Source of the DNA: Euzebyella saccharophila
GTDB taxonomy: Bacteria > Bacteroidota > Bacteroidia > Flavobacteriales > Flavobacteriaceae
Length of the DNA: 64,000 bases
Direction: 5' to 3'
Assembly (NCBI RefSeq): GCF_014855495.1
Contig: NZ_JACYFJ010000003.1
Location: 1-64,000 of the forward strand
Each line of letters starts with the position of its first letter. Within the stretch, counting starts at the first letter, position 1. Shown here in pieces: positions 3,407 to 40,184 of the stretch. The notes under the pieces were generated by a model that did no database searches, was not told the DNA's origin, and worked only from the letters and a program-made list of their open reading frames with translations. The position numbers were made by a program, and so were the translations under genes.

Positions 3407-3924
3407 ATGTGACAAATTGAATCAGCAATTAAAACAAGCAATAATTCAAGGTAAAACCGCTTTGAGCATCGAATTTGGTTACCACCGACATCGAGGTTGT
3501 TTTAATCCATTGGAAACATACTTTTAAGAGTCAGACAATAATGATTGGGAAAATGAATTAGTAAATGATTATTGGTCATATACAGAAGAGGTTTACGAAT
3601 AGCTCCTGGAGGTTGGTTCAAGACGCCTTTGGTCGCACTAAAAAAATGCTCGGCAGCTTTTAATATTCAGGTTGCCATTATGCCAGCTTGTAACGACGGT
3701 GCTTCATAGCGTTCGGAACTTCTAGCTACCTACAATTCAATAAAACAAAAGGGCAGAGTTGAACGAGTTATCTTGAGAACAAAGTATTTTTAGACCTCCA
3801 GTCGCGTATGGTAAATCCCGAATTAAATGATGTACTGGGCTTTTCAGATTTTTTAAATTATCATAAAAAAGGGTTGAGCATTGTAAAAGCGACGGTTAGG
3901 TTTTTTAATCACGATTTTAAGTGA
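3407..3924 (+). pseudogene. araB: Wreck of an FGGY carbohydrate kinase (probable L-ribulokinase, araB)
   Basis: Three reading frames joined across stops and frameshifts match an FGGY kinase as I know it from Bacteroidota. The N-terminal piece reads LKQAIIQGKTALSIEFG, compare the family form GKTALGIELGSTRI. It continues in another frame as VTTDIEVVLIHWKH, then NDWENELVNDYWSYTEEVY, compare HEWENxxxxGxWTYSLxDVW. The middle, several hundred residues including most of the ATP site, is missing. The C-terminal piece starts GGWFKTPLVALKK, runs through NDGAS-stop-RSELLATY where a Trp codon appears to have become TAG, and ends with YLENKVF and NDVLGFSDFLNYHKKGLSI. It converges on the araA operon, so loss of its ribulokinase is the natural reading, though a xylulokinase origin is possible. 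An ATG at 3407 is out of phase with the first piece. Confidence 0.6.
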
Positions 3925-3991
3925 ATATAATTTCCAACACTTTGTTAAAATAAGCCAGATACCACATTTGAAATATATATGGAACAAGTAA

Positions 3992-5611: not shown

Positions 5612-5637
5612 GCTATATTAGGTTAGCTTAAATCGAT

Positions 5638-6810: not shown

Positions 6811-6827
6811 TATTTATTGTTTAGGTT

Positions 6828-8336: not shown

Positions 8337-8645
8337 CTTTACCGACCTTTTAAGTGGTCATTGTGTTTTTATTTTTCATTAAAATAAACCCCCTATCACC
8401 GACTAAATAAATGCTAGTCTTTAGATTGGTGTCGTAGTAGTTTTTAGAAACAAAGAGTTTAAAAACTGTCAAAAAATCTCAAAATTTCGAGAAATCGACA
8501 TACCATTGATGCTTAATTCTCCGGTAATCTCGAATGAACACAATATTTTCGCATATTCTCCCTCAAAGGAAAAAACCCTCTCTACATTTTTTAAAATTTC
8601 ATTTAACTACCTCATAATTGAAAGTCATATCTAGCTTATCGTGCG

Positions 8646-8666
8646 ATTGATTCTTAAAGAATCAAT
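8646..8666. promoter_or_regulatory. Perfect 21-base palindrome upstream of araA
   Basis: Arms ATTGATTCTT and AAGAATCAAT pair perfectly around a single A at 8656. It lies in the 435-base spacer (8337-8771) between the start of araA and the end of the GH51 gene, about 310 bases before araA. It does not follow the GTGT-N7-ACAC pattern seen elsewhere, so a different regulator is implied if it is an operator. There is no T-run beside it, so it is a poor terminator for the GH51 transcript. The rest of the spacer is AT-rich with no gene and no clear -7 box. Confidence 0.4.
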
Positions 8667-8771
8667 TGATGAATTAAGATTAATTCTGTCAAGAAAGATT
8701 GCACCGGCCACCCATGGTAGATGATTCTGCCAGACTACGAAAATTTCATATAAAATTGTGTTCGATTTTAA

Positions 8772-10358
8772 CTAATCACTACTTAACATTACCAATGAGT
8801 GCGCTGGCAGTTTTAAGTTTAGAATACCTTTTCTAACCTTGAATTCTTTAAAAGGTTTAGGTATTACCTTATCAGCATTTTCAAAAGTATTATGATCTTG
8901 AAGTTTAGGGGATGTTAAAATTTGTGCCTCGAAGTTCTTCGAATTCAAATTAGCAACATTGATTTCTATTGATATTTCTTTTTCAGGATCGATGTTTACA
9001 ATGGAAATATGCTTTTTTCCATCTGAATTCTCGGAAGCTGATACCGATACCACCGGCAACCCTCTATATTCAGCATTGTTTTCAATTTCTGTAGGTATAA
9101 GTAATGCGTCATGGTGAACTTTATACATATGCATTACATGATAGGTGGGTGTCTTAATCATTTTTTCTTCATCGGTTAAAATAACTGCCTGAAGAACGTT
9201 TACCACTTGGGCCAAATTGGCCATTTTTACTCTCCGCGCATGATTGTTAAACGTGTTTAGAACTGTTCCCGCAATCATTACGTCACGAATAGTGTTCTGT
9301 TGGTAAAGAACCCCATTCTTCACTTCTGGCTCTGCATCATACCATCCACCCCATTCATCAACAAAAAGGTCTACCTTACCGTCGGGATCGTACTTATCCA
9401 TTATTTCAATATGCTTCGTAACGTATTCCTCCATATTTAAGGCCTGCTCCATTGTTTTAAAATAGATTTCCTCATCAAAATTTACCGAGGGTCCTTTAAC
9501 ATCCCAATTAAAAACGGCATAATCATGAAGGGCGACCGCTTCCATCAATTCATGAGGTACATTTTTCATTAGGGTCTCTGTCCAATGATAATCATCTTCT
9601 GAAGCACCCGAAGCAATGCGGTATACCTCAGATTCACCTGACCAACCGGCCATAAAAGTGGCGTATTGTCTATAAATATTAGCGTAATATTCGGCAGTCA
9701 TATTACCGCCACAACCCCAAGCTTCATTACCTACACCCCAATATTTTACTTTCCATGGCTCTTCGCGACCGTTTTTACGTCGCCAATCGGCCATGGGACT
9801 TGTGCCGTCATGGTTAGTATATTGAACCCAATCTATCAACTCTTGTACGGTACCACTGCCAACGTTAGCGGATAAGTAAGGCTCTGCCTCTAAAACCTCA
9901 CAGAGATTCAGAAAGTTATGTGTGCCGAAACTATTGTCTTCAGTAGTACCGCCCCACCAGCGATTAACAATGGTAGGCCTTTCTGATTGGGGCCCAACCC
10001 CATCTTTCCAATGGTAGGTATCTGCAAAACAGCCACCGGGCCAGCGTAGGTTCGGAATATCAAGTTCTTTAAGGGCTTCTATGATATCATTTCGTACACC
10101 ATCTGTATTTGGTATAGTCTTGTTTTCTTCTCCCACGTATAACCCTTCATAGATACATCTACCTAAATGCTCTGCAAAATGACCATAAATATGTTTGCTT
10201 ATGGTGTCTTTTGATTTTTCGGCGCTAAAATCAATTTTTACGGTATTCTGAGCGAATACTGTAGAGACCAGCGCCAAGCACAGTAAGCCTGATAATTTTA
10301 CTTTTCTTCTAAATGAAAATCTCAATTTTTTAGCTAAGGGAAATAGATTGGTTGCCAT
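8772..10358 (-). CDS. GH51 alpha-L-arabinofuranosidase, secreted
   Basis: Releases L-arabinofuranosyl units from arabinoxylan or arabinan oligosaccharides by a retaining mechanism. The 528 residues include a Sec signal with a long basic n-region, ending TVFAQ-NT. The GH51 (clan GH-A) core begins ISKHIYGHFAEHLGRCIY, and LRWPGGCFADTYHWKDG is typical. The acid/base glutamate is E212 in GVGNEAWG and the nucleophile E335 in FVDEWGGWYD. A C-terminal beta-sandwich of about 130 residues follows. It stands alone between its own promoter region, which has an exact copy of the window's recurrent operator, and the araA spacer. It supplies arabinose to both pentose routes encoded nearby. Confidence 0.94.
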   Translation of the reverse strand: MATNLFPLAKKLRFSFRRKVKLSGLLCLALVSTVFAQNTVKIDFSAEKSKDTISKHIYGHFAEHLGRCIYEGLYVGEENKTIPNTDGVRNDIIEALKELDIPNLRWPGGCFADTYHWKDGVGPQSERPTIVNRWWGGTTEDNSFGTHNFLNLCEVLEAEPYLSANVGSGTVQELIDWVQYTNHDGTSPMADWRRKNGREEPWKVKYWGVGNEAWGCGGNMTAEYYANIYRQYATFMAGWSGESEVYRIASGASEDDYHWTETLMKNVPHELMEAVALHDYAVFNWDVKGPSVNFDEEIYFKTMEQALNMEEYVTKHIEIMDKYDPDGKVDLFVDEWGGWYDAEPEVKNGVLYQQNTIRDVMIAGTVLNTFNNHARRVKMANLAQVVNVLQAVILTDEEKMIKTPTYHVMHMYKVHHDALLIPTEIENNAEYRGLPVVSVSASENSDGKKHISIVNIDPEKEISIEINVANLNSKNFEAQILTSPKLQDHNTFENADKVIPKPFKEFKVRKGILNLKLPAHSLVMLSSD

Positions 10359-10370: not shown

Positions 10371-10389
10371 AAGTGTGTATAAGACACGT
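10371..10389 (-). promoter_or_regulatory. Exact GTGT-N7-ACAC operator before GH51
   Basis: The core is GTGT (10373-10376), GTATAAG, ACAC (10384-10387). Its flanks AAGTGT and ACACGTAAAAAT are identical to those of the copy at 45614-45638, more than 35 kb away and before the GH95 operon. It lies 12 bases upstream of the GH51 start codon and downstream of the presumed promoter, the position expected of a repressor roadblock. The cognate factor is inferred to be the AraR-like protein at 45913-46647. Confidence 0.6.
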
Positions 10390-10575: not shown

Positions 10576-10611
10576 AAAAAAAGAACCACTTATCTCAAAG
10601 TGGTTCTTTTT
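10576..10611 (-). terminator. Rho-independent terminator of the FAH-KGSADH operon
   Basis: Perfect 14-base arms, AAAAAGAACCACTT (10578-10591) and AAGTGGTTCTTTTT (10598-10611), flank a six-base loop. Read leftward, the hairpin is followed by a run of T, about 45 bases after the stop of the FAH-family gene. An A-run on the other side gives some bidirectional character, but no rightward gene ends here. Confidence 0.85.
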
Positions 10612-10655: not shown

Positions 10656-11876
10656 CTAAGCGTTTTCCGCTCTTTGCGACAAGGTCATTCTTTTGTATGT
10701 ATAATCTACAAAAGCATTGATACCGAAATTCCATTTAGGGATTTTATCGGAATTATTCACCCAATTGATCAATTTGCCCAATTTAGGTGAAGCAATGGTT
10801 ACCTTGTCATTTATTTTGTGTGTAAATCCCATTCCTTCTTCGCCCCTGTCTAAAGTTGGCGCAAACATAGTTCCACAAAATAATACGAAACCATCAGGGT
10901 ATTGGTGATTACCATTGAGCACCTGAGCTACTAAATCTTCAGGTGAACGACTTATCGACCCCATATCGCTGGCGTCTTCCAATAGAAAACCATCCTCTCC
11001 TTCAATTGTAAGTGATACGTTACACGCTTTTACATCTTTTAAAGAAAAAGTGTCATCGAACAATCGAAACAAAGGCCCGATAGCGCACGAGCCATTCTGA
11101 TCCTTGGCTTCACCCAACAACAAAGCACTTCGGCCTTCATAATCGCGTAAATTCACATCATTGCCTAACGCAGCTCCTACAATTTTGCCGGTATTTGATA
11201 CCACTAAGACCACCTCTGGCTCCGGATTATTCCAAGAAGAATCGTGCAGTACCCCTACTTCAGCTCCGAAACCAATCGAAGAAAAAGGTTGACTCTTTGT
11301 AAAAACCTCGGCGTCTGGCCCTATACCCACCTCAAGATATTGAGACCAAATACCTCTTCTTTTCAATTCTTCCTTTAACTTAATAGCATGTTCCGAACCA
11401 GGTTTAATTTCATTCAACCCCTCACCTATGGTAGATGTTATTTCTCCCCTTATCTGTTTTGCAAGACTGGGGTCGCCTTTAGCCTTTTCTTCAATAACCC
11501 TTTCCAACAGACTTTTTATAAATGTTACACCACAGGCCTTTACCGCTTGCGTGTCATTTGGGGCCATAAAAAAGGGTTGATTGCCATTCTGATTATAGAA
11601 GAGGGTATTGTTCAAAATATCGCTTAGTGTACCTATTTTCCTAATATTAGCGTCTCCGGTAGTTAAAACACTCATATAGGAATCACTGCTTATTAGTTGA
11701 CTGGTAGACTTGTAGTAGTACGATAAATCGAAGACCTCACCGTTTTTAACCCATACTACATGCGGCCCCTCTACGTTGTTAAAAGCTAGTTCTTGTGGTA
11801 CATGACATCGGCCCACCCAAGTTCCTATCCGGGCATGATCCGGTATTATTTCTTTTATATCCATATCTTGATTCAT
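10656..11876 (-). CDS. FAH-family 2-keto-3-deoxy-pentonate dehydratase (probable)
   Basis: A 406-residue cytoplasmic protein of the fumarylacetoacetate hydrolase superfamily. Its C-terminal half has the metal-site region: PEPEVVLVV, then GNDVNLRDYEGRSALLLGEA and NGSCAIGPL. This resembles the 2-keto-3-deoxy-D-arabonate dehydratase of the Sulfolobus pentose pathway, which turns keto-deoxy-pentonate into alpha-ketoglutarate semialdehyde. The three-base gap to the upstream semialdehyde dehydrogenase strongly supports that role, since the product of one is the substrate of the other. No signal peptide is present. A fumarylpyruvate or diketo-deoxy-fuconate hydrolase role is the main alternative, but the partner gene argues against it. 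Confidence 0.75.
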   Translation of the reverse strand: MNQDMDIKEIIPDHARIGTWVGRCHVPQELAFNNVEGPHVVWVKNGEVFDLSYYYKSTSQLISSDSYMSVLTTGDANIRKIGTLSDILNNTLFYNQNGNQPFFMAPNDTQAVKACGVTFIKSLLERVIEEKAKGDPSLAKQIRGEITSTIGEGLNEIKPGSEHAIKLKEELKRRGIWSQYLEVGIGPDAEVFTKSQPFSSIGFGAEVGVLHDSSWNNPEPEVVLVVSNTGKIVGAALGNDVNLRDYEGRSALLLGEAKDQNGSCAIGPLFRLFDDTFSLKDVKACNVSLTIEGEDGFLLEDASDMGSISRSPEDLVAQVLNGNHQYPDGFVLFCGTMFAPTLDRGEEGMGFTHKINDKVTIASPKLGKLINWVNNSDKIPKWNFGINAFVDYTYKRMTLSQRAENA

Positions 11877-11879
11877 CTA

Positions 11880-13454
11880 CTATATATTATCGGTGGTATA
11901 AACCCCATTTACCAATCTAACAATTTTATTAATGTTTTCATCTTGAAGATCAATAGGTAATTTTTCTTGCGGAATGTTCTGGTAGCATTTTACGGTACAA
12001 AAACGTTCTATTGCGGCTGTACCCACCGAGGTAGTGGCCTCAAACGTTGAAGAAGGATATGGGCCACCATGATGCATTGACGGACAAACCTCTACACCCG
12101 TAGGAAACCCGTTAAATATCAATCTTCCCACTTTTTGCTCCAAGGCATCCAAGACATCGACCAACCCTGTATCTTCATCTGCATGAACGGTACCGGTTAA
12201 ATGCCCCCCTAGACTTTTAATAACATCCACTAATTCACCATTATCTTCGCACTGTACGACTATAGCTGCCGGACCAAAAATTTCATCTTCCAATTCTGGA
12301 GTGGCCAAGAATTTCTTTGCACTTACCTCGAAAAGATTTCCATTATTTTCTTTTTGAGAAATAATTTCCACAGAATCGGTGTCCTTTGTCTTTTGCACAT
12401 TCTCCCTAAAACTTTCTTTGATTCGCTCATTTAAAAAATACCCGATATTTATCGCTCCCAATGCCTCGACCAAATCAGCTATAAAAGTTGAGTATTGGTC
12501 ATTTTTCATAACCAATACTAGGCCTGGCTTAGTACAAAATTGTCCAGTTCCCAAGGTAATAGAACCTGCCAAGCCAGTGGCAATCTCTTTACCCCTGTTT
12601 TCAATGGCCTTGGGCATAATCACTAGAGGATTGGTACTGCCCATTTCTGCAAATACAGGTATAGGGTTTGGCCTAGAGGCCCCTATATTATAAAGTATTC
12701 TACCTACATGGGTGCTACCGGTAAACCCAACGGCCTTTAATTTCGGATGCTGTACCAATGCTTTACTTATTTCTGGCGAAAACCCTTGCACCATGGCAAA
12801 CATTGCAGCAGGAAAATTGTTCTTTTCAATTGCCTTCTGTATTGCCCTTGTACACAATTCAGTAGTCGCCGGATGACTTGGGTGCCCTTTCACCACAATA
12901 GTATTACCCGCAGCAATGGCCGAAGCTGTATCACCCCCTAATGTAGAGAATGCCAAAGGAAAATTTGATGCAGAAAAGACTGCCACCGTTCCAAGAGGTC
13001 GATATATTCGTCTAATATCTGGCTTTGGTAAAGGTTGCCGATCAGGTATCGCGGTATCTATTCGAGCTTGTTGCCAATCGCCTTTTCTTACCAAATTCGC
13101 GAAAGAACGTAATTGATTACAAGTTCTACCTCGCTCACCGGTCAGCCGTGCTTCACCTAATCCAGTTTCCGCATTACATACAACAATTAACTGCGAACCT
13201 AAGGCTTCGAGCTCATCGGCTATTGAATCTAACAAATCGGCCCTTTCGTTCATACTTTTTATGCGTACAGCCTCAAAAGCTATAGCTGCTGCTGTAACAG
13301 CCTCATCTACTTGACTTACGTCCGCCGCAATAAACGCTTCTCCTTTTTCTCCATTTACCGGGTTCTGGGCATTGAATTCGTCGCCCTTACCTACTTGCCA
13401 GGTGCCTCCGATATAATTTTTTCTTGAAATAATCTCCTCGGTCATAATTTTCAT
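11880..13454 (-). CDS. 2,5-dioxovalerate (alpha-ketoglutarate semialdehyde) dehydrogenase
   Basis: Oxidises alpha-ketoglutarate semialdehyde to 2-oxoglutarate with NAD(P)+, the last step of oxidative pentose or hexarate catabolism. The 524-residue ALDH fold has NYIGGTW at the start, SASNFPLAFS and the NAD-site GFTGSTHVG. The general-base E270 is in FAEMGSTNP, and the catalytic C307 in GTGQFCTKPGL. The HHGGPYPSSTF segment is typical of this ALDH subgroup. It leads a two-gene operon with the FAH-family dehydratase and diverges from the sugar-acid operon starting at 14101. The start at 13454 or three codons later cannot be separated. Confidence 0.85.
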   Translation of the reverse strand: MKIMTEEIISRKNYIGGTWQVGKGDEFNAQNPVNGEKGEAFIAADVSQVDEAVTAAAIAFEAVRIKSMNERADLLDSIADELEALGSQLIVVCNAETGLGEARLTGERGRTCNQLRSFANLVRKGDWQQARIDTAIPDRQPLPKPDIRRIYRPLGTVAVFSASNFPLAFSTLGGDTASAIAAGNTIVVKGHPSHPATTELCTRAIQKAIEKNNFPAAMFAMVQGFSPEISKALVQHPKLKAVGFTGSTHVGRILYNIGASRPNPIPVFAEMGSTNPLVIMPKAIENRGKEIATGLAGSITLGTGQFCTKPGLVLVMKNDQYSTFIADLVEALGAINIGYFLNERIKESFRENVQKTKDTDSVEIISQKENNGNLFEVSAKKFLATPELEDEIFGPAAIVVQCEDNGELVDVIKSLGGHLTGTVHADEDTGLVDVLDALEQKVGRLIFNGFPTGVEVCPSMHHGGPYPSSTFEATTSVGTAAIERFCTVKCYQNIPQEKLPIDLQDENINKIVRLVNGVYTTDNI

Positions 13455-13776
13455 GAATAGTTTAATTTATTAAATGATTAGAGCTTTAGTTTTAAATTTT
13501 TAGGGTTTTGATTTCATTTTATGGTGAAAAGAATATTCAAAGATCATTGCTCTCAAAATGAAGTTCTCTTCCCATTAAAGCGTATAAAAAATGTTTTCAT
13601 CTCTTAAGTTATTTCAGTCTTAACCCCCAAACGACACTTAGCTGAATTTTGAAAATTTGGGACTAAAATATGATTACACCTCTAGGGTCGATACAATAAA
13701 AGTGATATTATCAGCGAGTCTTTTGATAAATAGATATGTTAAAGTTTCTTAAAATTAAAATTACACATTTTTCTTT

Positions 13777-13794
13777 TAGTGTGAAAATCACACG
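13777..13794. promoter_or_regulatory. Exact operator between divergent arms of the oxidative pathway
   Basis: GTGT-GAAAATC-ACAC at 13779-13793 contains a perfect GTGTGA/TCACAC dyad, with TAGTGT and ACACGT flanks like the copies at 10371 and 45614. It sits in the 646-base spacer (13455-14100) between the semialdehyde dehydrogenase and the DUF4440-led operon, 325 and 307 bases from the two starts, so it could control both. The remaining spacer is very AT-rich and I see no gene or secure -7 box in it. Confidence 0.6.
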
Positions 13795-14100
13795 TTTAGA
13801 AAAAAACACACCTAACTATCACGATTTGAGCAAAATAATTATTTGTCAATTGCGAAAATTATTAAATATATTGTGATGGATTAATTAATAAAAGGTTATG
13901 ATTTTTTTCATTTTAAAAATTCTTTAAATGAAATTTTAAGAAAATGAAATAATCAAAAATCATGTTTATGAGAGGCAAATATATCATTTAACAATTGTTT
14001 TGCCTCAGTCAACTAAAATCAGTTTAGTTCATATGTGCTATAAATAATTTTTCTTAAAGCCTAAACTAGACATGTATTTACTATCAAGACCAACTAAATT

Positions 14101-14550
14101 ATGAAGCATACTTTTCTCAATAAATCGGGCGTACTTATTTGGCTATTATTATTTATGACCTTCTACGCGGTAGCACAAAGTTCTTTAAGAAAAGAAGATA
14201 TTATACAGACATTAAAAGAGTTTGATAATGCCATGGTACAGCGCAACTCTGAAGTTTTAGCTTCAATTGTATCAGATAACTTAACATACGGCCATTCAAG
14301 TGGCAACATTCAGAATAAAGACCAATTTTTAGATGACGCCTTAAATGGTCCATTTCAATTCATTTCGATAGCTAATGAAGAACAAAGCCTTGTCGTTTCT
14401 AAAGATACAGGTATTGTGAGGCATATTCTTGCTGCAGATGCCAAGAATAATGGCAGCCCCACGAAGATTCGAATAGGTGTACTTATGGTGTTTCAAAAAA
14501 ACGATCATGGTAAAATATTGCTTTTGGCCCGACAGGCTTACAAACTTTAA
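14101..14550 (+). CDS. Secreted DUF4440 (SnoaL/NTF2-like) protein
   Basis: A 149-residue exported protein: signal peptide with core VLIWLLLFMTFYAVAQ, then one NTF2-like domain of the DUF4440 type. It has a helical start (LKEFDNAMVQRN), the segment DNLTYGHSSG, and the strand pair VVSKDTGIVRH and IRIGVLMVFQK. DUF4440 domains form small cone-shaped cavities and some relatives act as isomerases or binding proteins, but no catalytic residues can be assigned. It is the first gene of the rightward sugar-acid operon, 40 bases before the RraA-like gene. Its recurrent-looking pairing with a secreted RraA-like protein suggests a joint function. Confidence 0.7.
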   Translation: MKHTFLNKSGVLIWLLLFMTFYAVAQSSLRKEDIIQTLKEFDNAMVQRNSEVLASIVSDNLTYGHSSGNIQNKDQFLDDALNGPFQFISIANEEQSLVVSKDTGIVRHILAADAKNNGSPTKIRIGVLMVFQKNDHGKILLLARQAYKL

Positions 14551-14590
14551 ACAATAAATAAGCTGATTAATAATCTAACTGAATATAATT

Positions 14591-15526
14591 ATGTTGAAAA
14601 CAAAATGCACATTGATAATTCTTCTTATTGGCCTTGTTGTGCACACGAACGCTCAACAGATTACCAAAGAAGAACTGATTCTTTTAACCAACGAATGGAA
14701 AGGTGAAAGATTTGAGGATGGCAGACCCAAAGTATCTGATGAGATTTTAGACCGAATGAAATCGGTAAGCTTGGAAGAGGCTTGGGCAGTGATGAAAAAT
14801 GAAGGATATCGATATCAGATAGCCGAAGACTGGAAATTGATCAATCCTGATAGTGTTCTAGTGGGCAGGGCCCTTACCGCTACTTTTATGCCCGGGCGTC
14901 CAGACGTATGGAAAGCAATTGATGATAGAGGTAAAGCTCAAGGTAAAAGGGGGCAAAACACTTGGCCGGTCGATTTGCTGGTCAAAAGAGACGTTTACGT
15001 GGCAGATCAGTTCGGGGCCGACCGAGATGGTCCGACGATTGGCGACAATGTGGGTAACGCTATTTATGCAAAATCAGGTAATGGTATTGTATATGACGGG
15101 GCCCTACGCGATGTTGAGGGGTTAATGGAGATTGGTGGTTTTACTTCTTTTTATACCAGCTATGATGCCTCGCACCACAATCCGCCGGGCGATATCAACA
15201 CCATGATCGTAGGTATCAACCAACCAACCCGTATAAGAACTGTAACTGTAATGCCCGGAGATGTAGTATTGGGAAAATTGGGCGTGGTTGCCTTTATACC
15301 TCCCCATTTGGCGGAGAGGGTTGTGACTACCTCTGAGATTGTTAGGTTGAGAGATATGTTCGGCCATGAAAGAATACGAGAAGGAGTATATACTGCCGGC
15401 CAGATAGATACGCGCTGGGCAGATGAAATAGAGAAAGATTTTAGCGAATGGCTCAATGAACACATTGATGAATTGCCCGTTCCTAAAAAGCAAATTCAAG
15501 AAATACTGAAGAAAAGAACCTGGTAA
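14591..15526 (+). CDS. Secreted RraA-like (HMG/CHA aldolase fold) protein
   Basis: A 311-residue protein with a Sec signal (CTLIILLIGLVVHTNAQQ) and an RraA-family domain. The signature GNGIVYDGALRDVEGL carries the Arg-Asp pair that, in 4-hydroxy-4-methyl-2-oxoglutarate aldolases, binds substrate and a divalent metal. Cytoplasmic RraA proteins inhibit RNase E, but export rules that out here. In this operon, next to an exported dehydratase, a lyase, aldolase or decarboxylase acting on 2-keto acids is plausible, for example splitting a keto-deoxy sugar acid. The N-terminal 70 residues (KEELILLTNEWKGERFEDGRPK) are an extension not needed for the fold. Function is uncertain. Confidence 0.65.
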   Translation: MLKTKCTLIILLIGLVVHTNAQQITKEELILLTNEWKGERFEDGRPKVSDEILDRMKSVSLEEAWAVMKNEGYRYQIAEDWKLINPDSVLVGRALTATFMPGRPDVWKAIDDRGKAQGKRGQNTWPVDLLVKRDVYVADQFGADRDGPTIGDNVGNAIYAKSGNGIVYDGALRDVEGLMEIGGFTSFYTSYDASHHNPPGDINTMIVGINQPTRIRTVTVMPGDVVLGKLGVVAFIPPHLAERVVTTSEIVRLRDMFGHERIREGVYTAGQIDTRWADEIEKDFSEWLNEHIDELPVPKKQIQEILKKRTW

Positions 15527-15546
15527 TTAAAAAAACAAAACTTTAA

Positions 15547-16830
15547 ATGAAAAATTCAAGAAGGTCGTTCATCTCAAAATCATTACTGGCCGGAGCTGGT
15601 GTCGGCCTAGCGGCAAATGCAACCTATGGGTCCGAATACTTAACAGCAGTTGACAAAAATCCAAAATTATCGGCCCCATCAGACTTAAAAATTACAGATG
15701 TAAAATGTGGTTTTATTCGACGTGGTAGCGGTCTATTCGTAAAAATTCATACTAATCAAGGAATTTATGGTTGTGGTGAGGGAGTAGATGCCGTACCGGG
15801 TACTTACCACTTAGTCAAAAGAATGGGCTGGTTTTTAAGAGACCAAAGTCCGTTCAATGTACATAAAATTTTTGAGGATATTCGGCGTGCCGGTCATTTC
15901 GGAGGAGGACAATCAGGTACGTACGTCGCTGTTCTTTCTGCCATAGAGACCGCTTTATGGGATTTGGCGGGCAAAGCGTTAGACCTACCTGTTTATAAGC
16001 TACTTGGTGGAAAATTTCGTGATAAAGTAAGGGTCTATTGCGACACCGCTTTGTACCGGGTAAAATTTCCTTCGCCAGATGACTTTGCCACTGCGGCCAA
16101 AGATGCTATCAAAAACTGGGGGTTCAACGCGCTAAAATTTGATTTGGATTATGCTAGTGACCCCGATAAGTATGATCGTTATAATTGGACAGCCAGTCCT
16201 GGCGAAATCGCGCGAATGTATAACCAGCTTGCCGCGGTAAGAGAAGCCGTCGGACCAAAAATTGACCTTTGTGTCGATATGCACGGCCGTTATGACCATG
16301 TAACCGCACAAACCATTGCCAAAAAAGTAGAAGATCTTAACTTAACTTGGCTCGAAGAACCGATTCCTGCCGAGAATTTTGATGCTTTTAAAGCCATTGC
16401 TGCAGAAACGAGCACTCCCATCTCTGCAGGCGAAAATGTTTATTTAGGCCACGGCTTTAAACAACTGTTAGACAATGGAGTGGACATTGTTATGCCCGAC
16501 CTACAAAAATGTGGTGGTCTTGGTGAAGGACAACGAATTGCCAACCTTGCCAATTTGTATTATGTACCTTTCTCACCACACATGGTCGCATCTTTCTTAG
16601 GGGCAATGGCATGTGCCCATGTATGTGCTTCAGTACCGAATTTCCATTTGATGGAGTGGCAATCATATTTTCATACCGATCCTATGTTCAAAGAAATAGT
16701 TACCTATGATGAAGGCGACTGGGTCAAAGACAGTTTCGTAAAAGTGTCTGAGAAACCGGGTATAGGTGTCGATATCAATGAAGAGGCCATGAAAAAATAT
16801 GCTCCCGAAGGAATTCCATTTTTCGAATAG
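15547..16830 (+). CDS. Tat-exported sugar-acid dehydratase, mandelate racemase/enolase superfamily
   Basis: Removes water from an aldonic acid to give a 2-keto-3-deoxy acid. The 427-residue protein starts with a twin-arginine signal (NSRRSFISKSLLAGAGVGLAA), so it would be folded and metal-loaded before export. All superfamily metal and base positions are visible: D244 in VDMHG, the glutamate of WLEEP (E270/E271), E296 in AGEN, D318 in MPDLQKCGG, H345 in SPHM and E370 in MEWQ. The pattern fits galactonate or arabinonate dehydratases. It lies 20 bases after the RraA-like gene and 13 before a BASS transporter. An epimerase or racemase activity cannot be excluded by sequence alone. Confidence 0.8.
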   Translation: MKNSRRSFISKSLLAGAGVGLAANATYGSEYLTAVDKNPKLSAPSDLKITDVKCGFIRRGSGLFVKIHTNQGIYGCGEGVDAVPGTYHLVKRMGWFLRDQSPFNVHKIFEDIRRAGHFGGGQSGTYVAVLSAIETALWDLAGKALDLPVYKLLGGKFRDKVRVYCDTALYRVKFPSPDDFATAAKDAIKNWGFNALKFDLDYASDPDKYDRYNWTASPGEIARMYNQLAAVREAVGPKIDLCVDMHGRYDHVTAQTIAKKVEDLNLTWLEEPIPAENFDAFKAIAAETSTPISAGENVYLGHGFKQLLDNGVDIVMPDLQKCGGLGEGQRIANLANLYYVPFSPHMVASFLGAMACAHVCASVPNFHLMEWQSYFHTDPMFKEIVTYDEGDWVKDSFVKVSEKPGIGVDINEEAMKKYAPEGIPFFE

Positions 16831-16843
16831 ATAATTTTTTTCA

Positions 16844-17962
16844 GTGAAATCTTTATATCAAATTTTTCTTTGGGTGGCATTTGTATTGGCCCTCGGTTCA
16901 GGCTATTTCTATTTTCAAGATAAATATGAAATTTTTGGTCCATTATTAATATTTTTCTTTTTGGCACTTTCTTTTGGTGTCAGAGGCTATAATAAAGTCA
17001 AAGGCTTTTCTTTTGCCTTATTGATATTTGCAGTAGTCTCTTTTGCCATGACCTATCCGAAATTGTTGACTACTTGGGGTGATTTTCAGGTAAAGTCTTT
17101 AATAGTACCGTTGCTACAAATCATCATGTTCGGTATGGGTACCTCAATGAGCATCAAAGATTTTGGTGAGGTCATTAAAAGTCCGAAAGCAGTTTTTATT
17201 GGGCTCGTCTGCCAATTTACGATTATGCCGATTGTAGGTGCCACCCTAGTTTTTATATTTAAATTTCCGCCAGAGATAGCGGCAGGTGTAATTTTGATAG
17301 GTTCCTCCCCTAGTGGTTTGGCTTCTAACGTAATGTGCTATATCGGCAAGGCGAATCTTGCGCTCTCTGTAACCCTTACGACCGTTGCAACTTTATTAGC
17401 TCCTTTTGTCACCCCACTTTTAATGAAATTTTTTGGTGGTGAACTTATACCAATCGATTTATGGGGAATGATGTGGAGTATAATCAAAATAACGATTTTA
17501 CCCATAGCTGCCGGACTCATTTTCAACAAACTTTTTCATGGAAAGACCGAATGGGTAGACAAGGCCATGCCCTTGGTATCTATGGGTGGTATTGCCCTTA
17601 TTTTAGGAGTTATCACCGCTGCGGGCAGAGATAATCTATTGACCATGGGAGCTGTATTGATCCTAGTAGGTCTCATTCACAACATATCTGGTTACTTCTT
17701 GGGCTATTGGGGTTGCAGAATTTTTAGGCTCGAAGAAAAATCAAGTAGAACCATTGCATTTGAAGTTGGTATGCAAAATGCAGGCCTAGCATCTGGCCTG
17801 GCCAACGAAATGGGTAAAGTTGCTACTGTAGGTCTGGCACCGGCTGTATTTGGCCCAATGATGAACATTACAGGTTCTATTCTGGCCTCGTATTGGCACA
17901 AAAATGCCCCGCTTAAAAATGATAATGTAGGGCCTATCAATGAGCCATCTACACAAAATTGA
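16844..17962 (+). CDS. BASS-family Na+-coupled organic-acid transporter
   Basis: A 372-residue inner-membrane protein with about ten helices, related to bile-acid:sodium symporters and bacterial keto-acid importers such as PanS. The start is a GTG at 16844, 13 bases after the dehydratase. The two crossing-helix regions that form the Na+ and substrate sites are recognisable as GSSPSGLASNVMC and FEVGMQNAGLASGLA. In this operon the likely cargo is the sugar acid or 2-keto-3-deoxy acid made outside the membrane, delivering it to the cytoplasmic FAH dehydratase. The cargo is inferred from context; the family is clear. Confidence 0.8.
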   Translation: MKSLYQIFLWVAFVLALGSGYFYFQDKYEIFGPLLIFFFLALSFGVRGYNKVKGFSFALLIFAVVSFAMTYPKLLTTWGDFQVKSLIVPLLQIIMFGMGTSMSIKDFGEVIKSPKAVFIGLVCQFTIMPIVGATLVFIFKFPPEIAAGVILIGSSPSGLASNVMCYIGKANLALSVTLTTVATLLAPFVTPLLMKFFGGELIPIDLWGMMWSIIKITILPIAAGLIFNKLFHGKTEWVDKAMPLVSMGGIALILGVITAAGRDNLLTMGAVLILVGLIHNISGYFLGYWGCRIFRLEEKSSRTIAFEVGMQNAGLASGLANEMGKVATVGLAPAVFGPMMNITGSILASYWHKNAPLKNDNVGPINEPSTQN

Positions 17963-20292
17963 TGAAACTATGCGATTTTATGATGCGTAAACCGACGAAA
18001 GACAGACACCTCGCAAAAGGTATTTTAAAACCATTTTCAAGGTTGGTAATCCAAAGATTATTTTTACATGTAGTAACTGCTATAGTATTAGTGGCCTTAC
18101 TTATTTCTATTGGTTGCGAAAGGGAATCTTCAAATAGGATAGCGCACACCTCTTGGAAACATTATGGTGGTAGCCCTGATCAATCAAAATACTTCGAAAC
18201 ACCAGGTATTACGAAAGAGAATGTTTCAGATTTGGAGGTTTTATGGGTGTACCCGACCGAAGACAACAGGTTTTACTTTTTCAATCCAATTATTGTTGAC
18301 ACAACTATGTATGTGCTTGGCAAGAATAATTCTCTAATTGCTATAAATGCCAAAACGGGCAAAGAATTGTGGATACATACCGATTTGTCGGGCATTACGA
18401 GAAGAGGTTTGAACTATTGGGAAAGTAATGACCATACAGATAAGCGATTGCTGTTTACGTTGAACAACTCATTACAGGCCATTGATGCCGTGACAGGTAA
18501 AACTATTTCAGATTTTGGAAAGAATGGATATACCGACCTCCGAGAGGGGTTGGATAGAAATCCTGCTTCCATTAAATCGATACAATCTATGATGCCGGGT
18601 GTTATTTATGATGACCTTATAATATTGGGGTCAGCACCGGGAGAAAGCTATTTTTCACCTCCAGGTCATGTTAGGGCTTACAACGTAATTACGGGAAAAC
18701 TAGAGTGGACCTTCCACACAATACCTCACCCTGGGGAATACGGCTATGAAACATGGCCAAAAGATGCCTATAAGTACGTAGGGGGCACCAATGTTTGGAG
18801 CGAAATATCTGTTGATGAAGAACGAGGAATTGCCTATCTACCGATCGGTTCGCCCACATATGATTACTATGGTGCAGATCGATTAGGCAGTAATCTTTTT
18901 GCCAATTCCCTTGTTGCCATAAATGCCAGGACAGGCGAAAGGATCTGGCACTACCAGACAGTGCATCATGATCTTTGGGACTACGACCTATCTCCTGCCC
19001 CGCAACTCTTGACCGTTGAAAAAAACGGAGAAAAAATCGATGCCGTTTCCATAGCTACTAAACACGGCTTTGTTTTCGTTTTCGATAGGGTTACAGGTGA
19101 TCCTTTGTTTCCTATTGAAGAAAAGGCCTTTCCTAAAAGTGAAATGCCCGGAGAAGAGTCTTGGCCGACACAACCAATCACATCACTACCAAGCTTTACA
19201 AGGCATGAGGTAACCCCTGAAAACTTAAATCCGTATTTTTCAGATAGCCTTAGACAAGATTGGTTACAGCGATTAGATTCTGCAAAAACGGGTCTTTATG
19301 TCCCTCCCTCGGATAAATATGAGACCATAATGATGCCCGGGGCATTAGGTGGTGCCAATTATGGTAACACGGCCGCCAACCCCCATACGGGAATGATGTA
19401 TATTATGACGCAAGAATACGCTTCAACCTATCGCTTGAACAAGGTTGAACCGCCTTCTGATGAACTCACACAAAACGACGTAGATAAAGTTACTGCATTG
19501 TATAATTCTTCGTGTATTGCTTGTCATGGACCAAAAATGGAAGGTGCCGCAGGGCCTTCGTTGATTAACCTTGGCCATCATATGGCGTATCAAGATTTTA
19601 AAAATACCGTCATTAATGGCAAAGGCTTAATGCCAGGACTAGTGCATGTTGATGAAGAAGCTTTAAAGGCGTTATTCAAGTTTCTTGGTGGCAATCCTAA
19701 CCAACGAAGCTATAGGTTTAACAACCAAGACCAAAACCCAATCGCCGGCCCTGTAGTAGGTTCGGGAGGTGCTAAAATAAAGACAGATTCCTTACGCGGC
19801 GCACCTATGGAAGAATATCCTGAAGATGTTCAACACCCTGAAGCAAGATATACTACTGATTACGGATTGGATTGGCCAGGTTTAATAGACCCGCCTTGGT
19901 CTTCTATTCTTGCTTATGACCTAAACAACGGAAGCATTAAATGGAGGCGCCCTATAGGCATCGACTCATTATATGCCAAGGGAGATGAGAAATTGGGTGC
20001 GCCCAATGGCACGCAAAGAAAAGGTATGGTAATAACCTCAACGGGTATCATATTCGTAACTGCGAAGGGTGGTAAACTCTATGCAATCGATGCCGACAAT
20101 GGTGAAACGCTTTGGGAAACTACTTTAAGCAACGAATCTAATGCCCAACCGAGTATGTTTTCCATTGATGGAAAGGAATACTTAGTAATAAATGCTTCTT
20201 CTTCTTTTAGAAGAGATAGCTACGACCATTCCAAGAAACCCGGCGCACTACCCAAAGGTTATGTTGTGTATGGCATTCCAGACAAAAAATAA
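17962..20292 (+). CDS. PQQ-dependent aldose dehydrogenase with inserted cytochrome c domain, lipoprotein
   Basis: A quinoprotein of about 776 residues oxidising an aldose to its lactone outside the inner membrane. The ATG at 17962 overlaps the previous stop (TGATG), implying coupled translation. After a long basic n-region comes a lipobox, LLISIGC. The eight-bladed PQQ beta-propeller runs from about residue 45 (HYGGSPDQSKYF) with blade motifs such as INAKTGKELW, and HHDLWDYDLSPAP is a PQQ-site signature. A c-type haem site C518-I-A-C-H522 with a distal methionine candidate (KGLMPG) is inserted before the last blades, which end AIDADNGETLW. This is the architecture of membrane-linked quinoprotein glucose/aldose dehydrogenases. 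No PQQ biosynthesis genes are in the window. Confidence 0.88.
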   Translation: MKLCDFMMRKPTKDRHLAKGILKPFSRLVIQRLFLHVVTAIVLVALLISIGCERESSNRIAHTSWKHYGGSPDQSKYFETPGITKENVSDLEVLWVYPTEDNRFYFFNPIIVDTTMYVLGKNNSLIAINAKTGKELWIHTDLSGITRRGLNYWESNDHTDKRLLFTLNNSLQAIDAVTGKTISDFGKNGYTDLREGLDRNPASIKSIQSMMPGVIYDDLIILGSAPGESYFSPPGHVRAYNVITGKLEWTFHTIPHPGEYGYETWPKDAYKYVGGTNVWSEISVDEERGIAYLPIGSPTYDYYGADRLGSNLFANSLVAINARTGERIWHYQTVHHDLWDYDLSPAPQLLTVEKNGEKIDAVSIATKHGFVFVFDRVTGDPLFPIEEKAFPKSEMPGEESWPTQPITSLPSFTRHEVTPENLNPYFSDSLRQDWLQRLDSAKTGLYVPPSDKYETIMMPGALGGANYGNTAANPHTGMMYIMTQEYASTYRLNKVEPPSDELTQNDVDKVTALYNSSCIACHGPKMEGAAGPSLINLGHHMAYQDFKNTVINGKGLMPGLVHVDEEALKALFKFLGGNPNQRSYRFNNQDQNPIAGPVVGSGGAKIKTDSLRGAPMEEYPEDVQHPEARYTTDYGLDWPGLIDPPWSSILAYDLNNGSIKWRRPIGIDSLYAKGDEKLGAPNGTQRKGMVITSTGIIFVTAKGGKLYAIDADNGETLWETTLSNESNAQPSMFSIDGKEYLVINASSSFRRDSYDHSKKPGALPKGYVVYGIPDKK

Positions 20293-20341
20293 TATTGAGA
20301 ACCTCTGCAAGAGGCATTGACCTATTAATAAAAAAGATATT

Positions 20342-21556
20342 ATGAAACCATTTTTGATTTTTCTATTAAGCGTTTTTGGCTCTTTTTGTTTCGCTCAAAA
20401 CCTGTCAAATAGAGTAAGCCATAACGACCCTGCTACTTACAGAGAACTATCAAACGTACATGCTGGTGCCGGTAAAATGGGTTTTACCCAACTTATAGGC
20501 CGTAATGAGCTAGGTACTAACTTTTTATATCTACACACAGGTGTAATTCAACCTAAATCCGGCATAGGCCATCATTTTCACCACAGCATTGAAGAGATGT
20601 ACGTAATTTTAGAAGGAGAGGCCGAGTATACCATAAATGGTAGAACTTCAAGAATAAAGGCGCCAGCTTTGGTACCTTGTAAGTTGGGAGACTCTCACGG
20701 TATTTACAATGCATCGAATAAACCTTTAAAATGGATCAATTTTGCCGTTAGTAATGTAAAGGCAAAAGGAGATGCATTTGATCTCGCCGATGACCTAAAA
20801 GACACGCAATTAGATGAGGTTCCTGTTTTTGTTTCAGCTAGGTTGGAAAACGAAAAACTACAATCTGCAAAATCACTTTATATTGGCCAGGGCATTACAT
20901 TTCGTCGAATTTTTCAAGCTGAAGTATTTAAAACCAACTGGAATCATGTCGATCATGTTTCTATTGCAAAAAGATCAATGTCAAAGCCTAGGCAACTTAG
21001 CGGTGTTGAAGAAGTATACTACGTGATAAAAGGCTCTGGAGAGGTTTCTGTGAACGGAAAAAGTACCGCCATTAAACAAGACGATTCATTTTATGGATTG
21101 ATGGGGGAAACTATTTCATGGAAGAGTACAGACAATGAAAGTCTTGAACTTTTGGTTATAGGCATAACTCCATCCAAAGAAAAGGATTTTGAAATTACTG
21201 GTACCCCATCCACTCCAAAGGCTATGGCTTTACAAATGGATTTTGTCGTTGAAAAAGAAAATGCCAGAAAATTTGAAGAAATGTACCATTCCATCTATGT
21301 ACCTGCAATGCTGGTTCAAGATGGTTATCTGAGTTCGAAACTTCTAAGACTTTTTCCGGAAGAAGTTGCACGTGGGATTGAAGCAGAACCAACCGCTTTC
21401 AACTACCAAATTCAGATATCGTTCGACACAGAAGAAAATCGTCGTAAATGGGTCGCCAGCGCCCAACATCAAATTGCATGGCCAGCCGCTTCTTCTCTTG
21501 CCAAAGAATTTAAATGGCGTGGCTATGATGTAATGGGAGATGACGACCAGAGATAA
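20342..21556 (+). CDS. Secreted double-cupin protein with C-terminal ABM-like domain
   Basis: A 404-residue exported protein (signal ending SFCFAQ). The first cupin, about 50-135, has the metal motif HHFHHSIEEMYVILEG and a second-motif histidine in LGDSHGIYN. The second cupin, about 190-275, keeps the fold (EEVYYVIKGSGEVSVNG) but its first histidine pair is WNHVDHV and its end lacks a clear metal His. The last 110 residues (about 290-400) look like a ferredoxin-like antibiotic-monooxygenase/EthD-type dimer domain. It closes the sugar-acid operon, 49 bases after the PQQ dehydrogenase, and converges with an SMP-30 protein that also carries two cupins. A role in sugar-acid or lactone handling is likely, but the reaction is unknown. 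Confidence 0.7.
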   Translation: MKPFLIFLLSVFGSFCFAQNLSNRVSHNDPATYRELSNVHAGAGKMGFTQLIGRNELGTNFLYLHTGVIQPKSGIGHHFHHSIEEMYVILEGEAEYTINGRTSRIKAPALVPCKLGDSHGIYNASNKPLKWINFAVSNVKAKGDAFDLADDLKDTQLDEVPVFVSARLENEKLQSAKSLYIGQGITFRRIFQAEVFKTNWNHVDHVSIAKRSMSKPRQLSGVEEVYYVIKGSGEVSVNGKSTAIKQDDSFYGLMGETISWKSTDNESLELLVIGITPSKEKDFEITGTPSTPKAMALQMDFVVEKENARKFEEMYHSIYVPAMLVQDGYLSSKLLRLFPEEVARGIEAEPTAFNYQIQISFDTEENRRKWVASAQHQIAWPAASSLAKEFKWRGYDVMGDDDQR

Positions 21557-21569
21557 TTTCTTCGGGATT

Positions 21570-23501
21570 TTATAGATAATTGATATATCCTTCCATATTG
21601 GTACGTATTTTGAAAACCTTGTCATAGCTTACTATATAAAGCGTTTTCATATCCTTATCACCAAAACACAGACTTACAGGAAAAGAAGGTAAGTTGATCA
21701 TACCCACAAAAGAGCCCTTGGCATCAAAAATTTGAACACCGTAATAGGTAGCGACATATATATTGCCGTTCTTGTCTATTGCCATACCATCGGCACTCGA
21801 AGATTTACCTTTTCTTTCTAGTACATTATCGGTCAACAAAAGTTCGGCAAATTTTCGACCGTTAGAAATGGTGCCGTCTTCATAGACATCGTAAGCCCAA
21901 ATAAAGTTCTCTTTGTCGCTGTCGACTGGGTACCAAGATTCATCATCATAACAATTATTGATGTATAAGGTTTTGCCATCGGGCGAAAGTAAAATACCGT
22001 TCGGCATCGCAAACTCGTTCGGTGAAGTAATTCTGCTAATTACACCCTTATTAGAGACATAATATACTGCCCTACCCGGTTGAAATTTCTCAGCTTCCAT
22101 CGTAAATTGCGGATCGGTGAAGTAGATTCCACCTTTTGAATCGGTAATAATATCATTAGGACCATCGATTGGTTTACCATTATAACTATCTACTATGACC
22201 CTTACTATTTCGCCAGTGGTAGTCATCTCGAGAACACGGTGACCGATCATATCGCATACCAATAAGTTACCGTTTTTATAGGGGTACAATCCGTTAGTTT
22301 GCATTTTGCCCTGTGAAATATTTCTCAAGGACCCATCGCCACTCATTTCTACAATCGAACTTTTTTTAGGGTCGGCATTCCAATTTTCATCAAAATACAT
22401 ATTAGAGAAATAAACTTTACCGTTCAGCCATTTCGGGCCTTCGCTAAAGGTTAAATGAGGTTCAGCTTCAGATCCGTCTATAAGTAGTTCTAGTTTGGCA
22501 TTTTTAGGAATAATCTGCAAAAACCTTTTCGATGCATCTTCTTGCTTTTTTACATAATCTTCCCTTATTGGAACAAAAACATCCATCATGTCGGCACCTA
22601 CTTCTCCAGCTTTTGATGAATGAACCATATTACCAGCGACGTAAATTGCATCGTTTGTCTTTAGAGCATGCTCTTCACCTACAACCATTTGTTCAAGACT
22701 TCCACGCTGCACAAAGGTCAATTGTTCTTCAGGATGAATATGTGCTCTGGCTGTGGTATTCGGTTGTAATGAGACAAAACTAAGTTGCATGTTACCGGCC
22801 GATACAATACGTGAAAAGGCACCCTCGCTTATTTTACTCAGCTGTATATCGTACAGATCATAGATCTTGTTAGGCACGATAGAGGGCTCTAAGTATGCGT
22901 CTTTAGTTTTAGTTGATTTTACGCTGCTAGAAATACCCAGTTTTTCGAGATAATCTAATCTTACTGGGTTGTACACCTCAACCAGTTGAGCCCCTAATTC
23001 ACCGGCCCTTATTTCACTTACACTATTTCTTTTTTGAAAAATAAAGTCGGTTCTTGGGGTACCACTATGTGTTCCGTCTGCTTCTTCTCGCTCAATGGCT
23101 ACCAATTTTTTGGTTTTATTTCCGTCCGATAATTCTATCGTACCTTCCACCATTATAAGAAATCTACTTTCTGGTAGTTCTTCTCTAGCAATAATCGAAT
23201 TAGGCTCTAAAGTCAAAATATTCACCAAAGCCCCATTACCCCAAAAAAAATTTGCATTTACACCCGGGTATAACTCTAAGGTTTTCATGCTATCAAAACT
23301 TATTTTTTTACCCGCTTCCGAACTAGCCTTAACCTTATTTTTCGTATCACGTAGCTCTTTTGGTTCAAGATTGTACTTTGCTATAAGTTTGTCATTTTCT
23401 TCCTTCCATTTTGGTACAGTTAAGGTATTGCAACCCATTAACAAAAAAATAGCGATTAGAAGCTGTAAACTCACAGAATGATTATTCATATGTCTAGACA
23501 T
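21570..23501 (-). CDS. Lipoprotein with two cupins and an SMP-30/gluconolactonase domain
   Basis: A 643-residue lipoprotein (lipobox FLLMGC). Two cupin domains occupy about 55-155 and 225-315, the second having HIHPEEQLTFVQRG and MVHSSKAG with metal-type histidines. From about 335 to the end is a six-bladed SMP-30/gluconolactonase propeller. It includes FSEGPKW with the metal glutamate, GPNDIITDSKGGIYFTDP with the metal asparagine, MPNGILLSPDGK, and SSADGMAIDKNGNIYVA with the metal aspartate. The lactonase part would open the aldonolactone produced by the PQQ dehydrogenase. It is transcribed toward that operon (stop codons 13 bases apart) and diverges from SusCD pair 1. Fusion of cupins to SMP-30 is unusual. 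Confidence 0.8.
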   Translation of the reverse strand: MSRHMNNHSVSLQLLIAIFLLMGCNTLTVPKWKEENDKLIAKYNLEPKELRDTKNKVKASSEAGKKISFDSMKTLELYPGVNANFFWGNGALVNILTLEPNSIIAREELPESRFLIMVEGTIELSDGNKTKKLVAIEREEADGTHSGTPRTDFIFQKRNSVSEIRAGELGAQLVEVYNPVRLDYLEKLGISSSVKSTKTKDAYLEPSIVPNKIYDLYDIQLSKISEGAFSRIVSAGNMQLSFVSLQPNTTARAHIHPEEQLTFVQRGSLEQMVVGEEHALKTNDAIYVAGNMVHSSKAGEVGADMMDVFVPIREDYVKKQEDASKRFLQIIPKNAKLELLIDGSEAEPHLTFSEGPKWLNGKVYFSNMYFDENWNADPKKSSIVEMSGDGSLRNISQGKMQTNGLYPYKNGNLLVCDMIGHRVLEMTTTGEIVRVIVDSYNGKPIDGPNDIITDSKGGIYFTDPQFTMEAEKFQPGRAVYYVSNKGVISRITSPNEFAMPNGILLSPDGKTLYINNCYDDESWYPVDSDKENFIWAYDVYEDGTISNGRKFAELLLTDNVLERKGKSSSADGMAIDKNGNIYVATYYGVQIFDAKGSFVGMINLPSFPVSLCFGDKDMKTLYIVSYDKVFKIRTNMEGYINYL

Positions 23502-23795: not shown

Positions 23796-23813
23796 AAGTG
23801 TAAAAAAAACACT
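23796..23813. promoter_or_regulatory. Exact GTGT-N7-ACAC operator before SusCD pair 1
   Basis: AAGTGT-AAAAAAA-ACACTA, core 23798-23812, with perfectly symmetric AGTGT/ACACT arms. It is in the 449-base spacer (23502-23950) between the divergent SMP-30 lipoprotein and SusC genes, 138 bases before SusC, so both could be controlled. Nothing else recognisable lies in the spacer; TACTTTG strings at about 23531 and 23752 are one base short of the -7 consensus. Confidence 0.55.
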
Positions 23814-27220: not shown

Positions 27221-27230
27221 AACAATAAAA

Positions 27231-30061: not shown

Positions 30062-32782
<2,721 letters not shown>

Positions 32783-32792
32783 TTACTAATTT

Positions 32793-35029
<2,237 letters not shown>

Positions 35030-35048
35030 AGTTACTTATATAGTTAGT

Positions 35049-35939: not shown

Positions 35940-36004
35940 TGATCGGATTTTAATTTTACGACTGCTTTTACAGGAGTTTTAATCACTAAAAGCCTTTTAT
36001 TTTT

Positions 36005-37756: not shown

Positions 37757-37787
37757 GATAGAGATTATTTGAATTGAGAATTTGTTT

Positions 37788-40181: not shown

Positions 40182-40184
40182 CTA

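Follow-up and report, generated by a model that had tools for sequence, protein, structure and literature searches.

Does Euzebyella saccharophila oxidise a pentose partly outside its inner membrane, and if so, which one? The question is raised by a gene cluster within the first 64,000 nucleotides of contig NZ_JACYFJ010000003.1 (assembly GCF_014855495.1; bases 1-64000 of our contig C12, in a genome of 4.46 Mb that is 99.97% complete), a stretch that we call the window and whose positions serve as coordinates below. A preliminary description of this DNA had proposed that genes for every step from an aldose to 2-oxoglutarate stand together here and that the products of the first three are exported. 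Our analysis suggests an oxidative pathway that is induced by L-arabinose and split across the inner membrane, a reading to which we assign a probability of roughly 0.6.

The gene families were assigned with Pfam and NCBIfam models and, for the FAH protein, with the PDB chains 9kkt and 2q18. The exported operon (14101-21556, forward strand) encodes, in order: a predicted exported DUF4440 protein, from its domain model and signal (14101-14550); a predicted exported protein of the RraA/HMG-aldolase family (14591-15526); a putative Tat-exported sugar acid dehydratase of the enolase superfamily, with MR_MLE domains and a twin-arginine (RR) motif (15547-16830); a BASS/PanS-like transporter, which family models and the context of its relatives mark as a candidate importer of a keto-deoxy acid (16844-17962); a pyrroloquinoline quinone (PQQ) dehydrogenase with an internal haem c domain, probably a lipoprotein and an aldose 1-dehydrogenase (17959-20292); and a predicted exported double-cupin protein, a probable partner of the PQQ enzyme (20342-21556). 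The first four genes are spaced by 40, 20 and 13 bases, the BASS and PQQ genes overlap by 4, and 49 bases precede the cupin gene. Convergent with this operon is a gene (21570-23501, reverse strand) for a probable lipoprotein with cupin and SMP-30 domains, probably an aldonolactonase. Two adjoining genes are transcribed leftward on the operon's other side, one for an aldehyde dehydrogenase (ALDH; 11880-13454, reverse strand), by family models a probable 2-oxoglutarate semialdehyde dehydrogenase, and one for the FAH-superfamily protein (10656-11876, reverse strand), a probable cytoplasmic 2-keto-3-deoxypentonate dehydratase. The Route II pentose set (dehydrogenase, lactonase, acid dehydratase, keto-deoxy pentonate dehydratase and 2-oxoglutarate semialdehyde dehydrogenase) is present at family level, and it is at that level that the claim of a gene for every step holds, the six gene types named in it (these and the transporter) all being in place.

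The export signals reported earlier are all visible: the Tat-type RR motif in the dehydratase, a Cys after a hydrophobic run, and CxxCH at residue 519 of the PQQ enzyme. The motif RRx[FL] is present in 37 of 39 dehydratase sequences, the exceptions being one open reading frame truncated at the end of its contig and one homologue (33%) that lacks a signal, and in all four sequences of a second dehydratase type, MRdh2. An alignment of 21 dehydratases shows R5, R6 and F8 to be invariant, together with D244, H246, E270, E296 and H345, which we take to be catalytic; TatC is encoded in the genome. All six PQQ proteins, the window's included, have a hydrophobic run ending in Cys, and the true start of the window's PQQ gene is probably downstream of the listed TTG. 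Among five proteins with SMP-30 and cupin domains the strict Cys pattern is confined to that of the window, three others showing such a Cys by eye. The notion of three exported steps was accurate for these signals and overlooked the RraA, DUF4440 and double-cupin proteins of the same operon, so the number of exported steps may exceed three. The dehydratase is uncommon, occurring in 13 of 395 genomes of the phylum at 1e-100 and in 21 of 397 genomes of the family at 1e-120 (both counts include the window's genome), and a model of the archaeal arabinonate dehydratase gives it 127 bits, below the cut-off of 650.

The sugar is suggested by the regulatory sequences. A gene at 45913-46647 (reverse strand) encodes a Nudix/winged-helix regulator that is AraR-like: its AraR_C domain scores over the cut-off, its best solved match is BtAraR (233 bits), and its best NCBIfam model, an NAD repressor, falls far below cut-off. 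Relatives of this regulator (55-65%) are found at the ara loci of genomes G671, G049 and G186 and of E. saccharophila itself. BtAraR leaves DNA on L-arabinose, and its operator oligonucleotides contain what we read as a core, GTGT-N7-ACAC (PMC4666351; this and the other papers are cited for the sections available to us). The window has eight exact copies of this word where 0.41 are expected, and none of 100 shuffles reaches eight; with spacers of 3-6 or 8-12 bases the same repeat occurs once or not at all. When 256 inverted repeats with a seven-base spacer are ranked by intergenic count, GTGT comes third, behind TTTT and AAAA; a scan of promoters for 21-bp palindromes was uninformative. Five of the eight copies are intergenic. 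They lie upstream of the GH51-araA-mutarotase-SSS genes (10373-10387), in the promoter region from which ALDH-FAH and the exported operon diverge (13779-13793), between the SMP-30 gene and SusC (23798-23812), upstream of the GH95 gene at 42873-45344 (45616-45630) and upstream of a second SusC (47504-47518); the remaining three, at 6024, 8023 and 39691, are intragenic. The window therefore has two features of an AraR regulon, an AraR-like regulator and promoters that carry the operator word, binding being predicted. The word occurs 17 times in a set of 146 further loci that partly overlap, many of them GC-rich, each at least 9 kb long and together 2.7 Mb. Thirty other loci that were scanned hold four intergenic copies: before the araBAD genes of E. 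saccharophila, before the SusC that heads a run in G671, before the SusCD-BASS-RraA-dehydratase genes of G608, and 81 bases before the FAH gene of G182. In G671 the word also stands at the extended 5' end of an open reading frame (locus L203, 3473 in 3473-5986) that by eye resembles GH95, a position like that of the copy at 45616 in the window.

The G671 run is a parallel to the exported operon. On one strand, and headed by SusC, it reads GH51-araB-araD-araA-SSS, then the dehydratase (90%), RraA (86%), the PQQ enzyme (80%) and the cupin protein (67%), with the SMP-30 gene (62%) convergent; its araB and araD models are over cut-off. Taken together, the AraR-like regulator, the operator words and this run with GH51-araBDA make L-arabinose the likely substrate. 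In G049 the dehydratase and RraA lie beside mutarotase, araA, araD, araB and GH51, and the divergent neighbours of this ara set are a Nudix gene, an ALDH, an IlvD-type gene (853 bits to the L-arabinonate dehydratase model, cut-off 882), GntP and an FAH protein of a second type. The same Nudix-ALDH-IlvD-FAH2-GntP set lies about 46 kb from the dehydratase of G186. These sets (L221 2479-10026, L222 8857-16457), which include a Gfo/Idh-like protein with an RR signal, form a second layout of arabinose oxidation beside araBAD.

We compared 38 places that encode the dehydratase: 14 from the phylum search, 23 further ones from the family search and one in a Leeuwenhoekiella metagenome-assembled genome (MAG), the stretches being unequal, mostly about 10 kb on each side and 40 kb for the window. 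RraA matches adjoin the dehydratase at 35 places; the other three are a contig that begins inside the dehydratase gene and two 57% paralogues. SMP-30 relatives of any kind are near at 11 places, SusD at eight, the PQQ enzyme at four, a cupin at four and GH51 at three. The Leeuwenhoekiella MAG holds, within about 17 kb, ALDH-FAH, SusCD, MRdh2-RraA2-DUF4440-BASS-dehydratase and an opposed RraA.

Of particular interest for transport is a paralogous locus on contig C11 of the same genome (L226, 349000-368900), which encodes SusD, MRdh2, RraA2, DUF4440, BASS, a PfkB kinase and a KDPG aldolase. The kinase is nearest to KDG kinase models, under their cut-offs, the aldolase is over its cut-off, and UxuA and another FAH type are next to these genes; no operator word occurs in the 19.9 kb read, a stretch that ends inside SusD. 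Genome G473 (L193) repeats this order without a DUF4440 match. A kinase and an aldolase following dehydratase-RraA-DUF4440-BASS support the idea that a keto-deoxy acid enters through BASS, a family that we take to share a superfamily with the KdgT carriers. The layouts in L226, G473 and the Leeuwenhoekiella MAG thus pair an exported block, together with BASS, with cytoplasmic enzymes that, from their families, would fit a keto-deoxy hexonate or pentonate.

The cytoplasmic end of the pathway rests on the FAH protein and ALDH. No Pfam or NCBIfam model matches the FAH protein at 1e-3. It scores 362 bits against the bacterial FAH protein 9kkt and 77 bits against the Sulfolobus enzyme 2q18, with its Glu190 aligned to a Glu of the Sulfolobus chain. 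In FAH-type keto-deoxy pentonate dehydratases (COG3970 or COG0179) a specific Glu is proposed to abstract the C3 proton (PMC6336799); the window's protein would belong to COG3970. Keto-deoxy pentonate is the substrate of two such Herbaspirillum enzymes, of which one has a 34-fold preference for the D-form and the other a moderate preference for the L-form (PMC6336799), so this chemistry would fit the window's protein. The genome collection holds at least 592 relatives; the best 80 of them are 49-72% identical and include the Leeuwenhoekiella MAG (72%) and a Cytophagales MAG (63%), nearly all of the others being, by title, from Proteobacteria. The loci of the same 80 have an ALDH relative in 28 cases, an IlvD-type match in 20 and a relative of our dehydratase in 11. 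Within the Bacteroidota the protein is rare (two of 395 phylum genomes at 1e-60 and six of 397 family genomes at 1e-100, the window's included in each). We reject a Sulfolobus origin of the FAH protein on the bit scores and on the best 80 relatives, by title mostly proteobacterial. The enzyme set had been called Sulfolobus-type and not proteobacterial; this remains apt for the enolase-superfamily dehydratase, with its MR_MLE domains, and fails for the FAH protein, whose lineage, by its sequence matches, is not archaeal. The best model for ALDH is 2,5-dioxovalerate dehydrogenase (138 bits, cut-off 750), and ALDH-FAH pairs also occur in loci L022, L023 and L136. FAH and the dehydratase occur together in three of the 397 family genomes (FAH in six, the dehydratase in 21), for which Fisher's p is 0.0023 with the window's genome and 0.022 without it, uncorrected for kinship. 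Four of eight FAH-bearing genomes asked have a close dehydratase: the window's, G519, G572 and Leeuwenhoekiella.

In the pathway that we propose, the PQQ/haem c lipoprotein would oxidise L-arabinose to its lactone outside the inner membrane and hand the electrons on to the respiratory chain, the lactone would be opened by the SMP-30 lipoprotein, and the Tat-exported dehydratase would produce 2-keto-3-deoxy-L-arabinonate, on or around which the exported RraA and DUF4440 proteins would act. BASS would import the keto-deoxy acid, the FAH protein would dehydrate it to 2-oxoglutarate semialdehyde, and ALDH would yield 2-oxoglutarate. A split pathway had been suggested earlier for this DNA; it gains from the conserved export signals, the araBDA run of G671, the AraR-like words and the BASS-kinase-aldolase locus. 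Gene families, export signals, gene order, operator words and conservation are read from the sequence, while all the reactions, the substrate, the transport step and the electron path are what we infer from that context. Oxidation of an aldose by the PQQ enzyme is suggested by a relative (66%) in G690 that stands, with a cupin, after gluconokinase, 6-phosphogluconate dehydrogenase and GntP (L202 4865-12537); the cluster itself is likely a periplasmic gluconate route. TIGR03074, a model of glucose/quinate/shikimate-type quinoproteins, gives the window's PQQ enzyme 340 bits, below the cut-off of 832.65. In G671, G690 and G503 the double cupin likewise stands beside the PQQ enzyme, the pair in G503 (67%) lacking gluconate genes in the stretch read. 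The window shows no araB or araD match, and a loss of the phosphorylating route was suspected until araB and araD were found on another contig, together with an SSS gene and a second araA. Since araBAD is complete in this genome, sugar phosphorylation is not bypassed, contrary to the earlier suggestion; the oxidative route would run in parallel with it.

Among the neighbouring features, the L-arabinose genes to the left (3992-10358, reverse strand) encode an SSS transporter, an aldose epimerase, araA (model over cut-off) and a GH51 arabinofuranosidase, and a terminator-like hairpin of 14 pairs (10578-10611, reverse strand), a consensus match only, follows the FAH gene. To the right, a SusC/SusD pair (23951-28790, forward strand) is divergent from the SMP-30 gene; SusCD relatives are near the dehydratase in G186 (67%), G391 (55-58%) and G608 (46-54%). 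Esterase, GH43 and GH95 genes follow at 30062-45344, of which four were scanned and which by eye form an arabinoxylan-type locus; genes resembling this run are also seen in G671 (L203).

Several results weigh against a split L-arabinose pathway. The scheme leaves the RraA protein unexplained, and the best NCBIfam model for the dehydratase is galactonate dehydratase (241 bits, below the cut-off of 311). Near the dehydratase, BASS is found at 19 of the 38 places, araA at three, ALDH at two and an FAH protein of the window's type at two (a count of three includes one 30% relative). Four of the eight FAH-bearing genomes have no close dehydratase, in G519 and G572 it is on another contig than FAH, and each of the 13 other genomes asked has an ALDH relative (41-49%). 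No FAH turns up at 1e-100 in G671, which among genomes with the PQQ part is the closest relative, and the 50 kb read there contain no FAH, ALDH or BASS (a search for BASS elsewhere in that genome was not made). The operator link, strong in the window, is patchy elsewhere: the word is found at two and missing at 11 of 13 other dehydratase places, and found at one and missing at five of six other FAH loci scanned. With one mismatch allowed, the window has 23 copies against 14.7 expected, a number that three of 100 shuffles reach, and the excess is nearly gone. Finally, an external source of PQQ may be needed, as pqqE, the only pqq gene searched for, gives 57 bits in this genome against a model cut-off of 381; none of 14 control genomes reaches this cut-off either, which leaves the search with no positive control.

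The best of the alternatives, which we consider possible and on balance unlikely, is cleavage outside the cytoplasm: RraA, as a class II aldolase, would split the keto-deoxy pentonate into pyruvate and glycolaldehyde, BASS would import pyruvate, and FAH and ALDH would form a second branch for uncleaved acid. The RraA/HMG aldolase family acts on 4-hydroxy-2-oxo acids, a class to which keto-deoxy acids belong. The company of RraA and dehydratase at 35 of 38 places, the lack in G671 of FAH at 1e-100 and of BASS in the stretch read, and G396, which has BASS-RraA and no dehydratase at 1e-40, all speak for this idea. So do the residues of RraA, presumably a D-X20-R-D motif: R173 and D174 are invariant in 24 aligned sequences and D152 is present in 21, in keeping with the metal-binding Asp and catalytic Arg of the family. 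The R173-D174 pair aligns with the Arg-Asp pair of the HMG/CHA aldolase 3noj, an enzyme whose activity is reduced by the substitution R123K and whose Asp124 is a metal ligand (PMC5065237). Similarity to the family profile is weak (39.6 bits), and a fold prediction from two sequences was discarded (pLDDT 34.6). On the other hand, a KDG-type kinase and a KDPG aldolase follow MRdh2-RraA2-BASS at two loci and would be wasteful after prior cleavage by RraA, both aligned RraA2 proteins lack D152, and the RraA match is split between two reading frames in G049 and in contig C10 of G755 (L105 10618-11555, L200 8850-9400). At locus L124 (8596-11856) BASS-RraA is followed by a Gfo/Idh-like protein with an RR signal and no dehydratase. 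The boldest option for RraA extends cleavage to a general scheme, in which some Bacteroidota would carry out quinoprotein oxidation, lactone opening, dehydration and RraA-dependent aldol cleavage all outside the inner membrane, taking L-arabinose to 2-oxo acids imported by BASS, and the same module with another dehydratase would supply 2-keto-3-deoxy acids to a KDG-type kinase and KDPG aldolase; we regard this as doubtful.

It is also conceivable, and in our view distinctly improbable, that a hexonate such as D-galactonate is the substrate of the exported module, FAH and ALDH serving a separate pentonate or hydroxyproline route. L-Arabinonate and D-galactonate share the configuration at C2-C4, the galactonate dehydratase model fits best, KDG-type enzymes and UxuA are encoded at the paralogous locus, and araA is absent from the stretch at 35 of the 38 places; the AraR-like operators, the araBDA run of G671, the ara neighbours of the dehydratase and RraA in G049, and the linkage to FAH and ALDH in the window and the Leeuwenhoekiella MAG argue for a pentonate. 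That sugar oxidation by PQQ and SMP-30 serves only to gain energy, the acid leaving the cell and the other genes being unrelated neighbours in a glycan locus, would agree with the few places at which PQQ is near, the opposite strand of SMP-30 and the PQQ-cupin pairs of G690 (with gluconate genes) and G503, but is very improbable given the tight operon (gaps of 13 to 49 bases, one overlap), its single AraR-like site and the recurrence of this set in G671, where SMP-30 is again convergent.

The split L-arabinose pathway resembles several known systems in part. The Weimberg pathway of Pseudomonas taiwanensis VLB120 likewise has a periplasmic PQQ dehydrogenase, lactone hydrolysis outside, uptake and a 2-oxoglutarate end, but imports the aldonate D-xylonate, where the window instead has a dehydratase with a Tat signal and a BASS importer (PMC11252243). 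Route II of Herbaspirillum huttiense shares FAH-type dehydratases for D- and L-keto-deoxy pentonate and differs in its SDR dehydrogenases and IlvD-type L-arabinonate dehydratase, export going unmentioned in the available part of the source (PMC6336799). The D-arabinose pathway of Sulfolobus also combines an enolase-superfamily dehydratase with an FAH-type dehydratase; in the window, by contrast, the FAH protein is nearer to a bacterial protein, the dehydratase is predicted to be exported, and a PQQ enzyme replaces the medium-chain dehydrogenase (PMC9795676; PMC6336799). The AraR regulon of Bacteroides has the Nudix AraR-like regulator, GTGT-N7-ACAC operators, ara genes and SusCD, whereas an oxidative branch is not named in the sections of that paper available to us (PMC4666351). 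The aldolase 3noj shares the RraA-type family and the Arg-Asp pair; the window's protein differs in its signal peptide, its 311 residues and its weak similarity (PMC5065237). Among the open-access papers listed by our searches, no title or abstract beginning describes an exported aldonate dehydratase step, which is weak evidence of absence. A literature search on 9kkt brought up nothing relevant.

The most similar described pathway dehydrates inside the cell, and the described split pathway, that of P. taiwanensis, stops outside at the aldonate (PMC11252243, in the part available); here dehydration appears to take place outside the inner membrane. If this is true, the electrons of the sugar would pass straight to the respiratory chain, and carbon would be committed as a keto-deoxy acid usable by perhaps fewer neighbours. 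An oxidative branch would be added to the arabinose regulon of the phylum, and BASS carriers and exported RraA proteins would gain a testable job. Should the whole pathway lie outside, BASS would be an importer family for keto acids made there.

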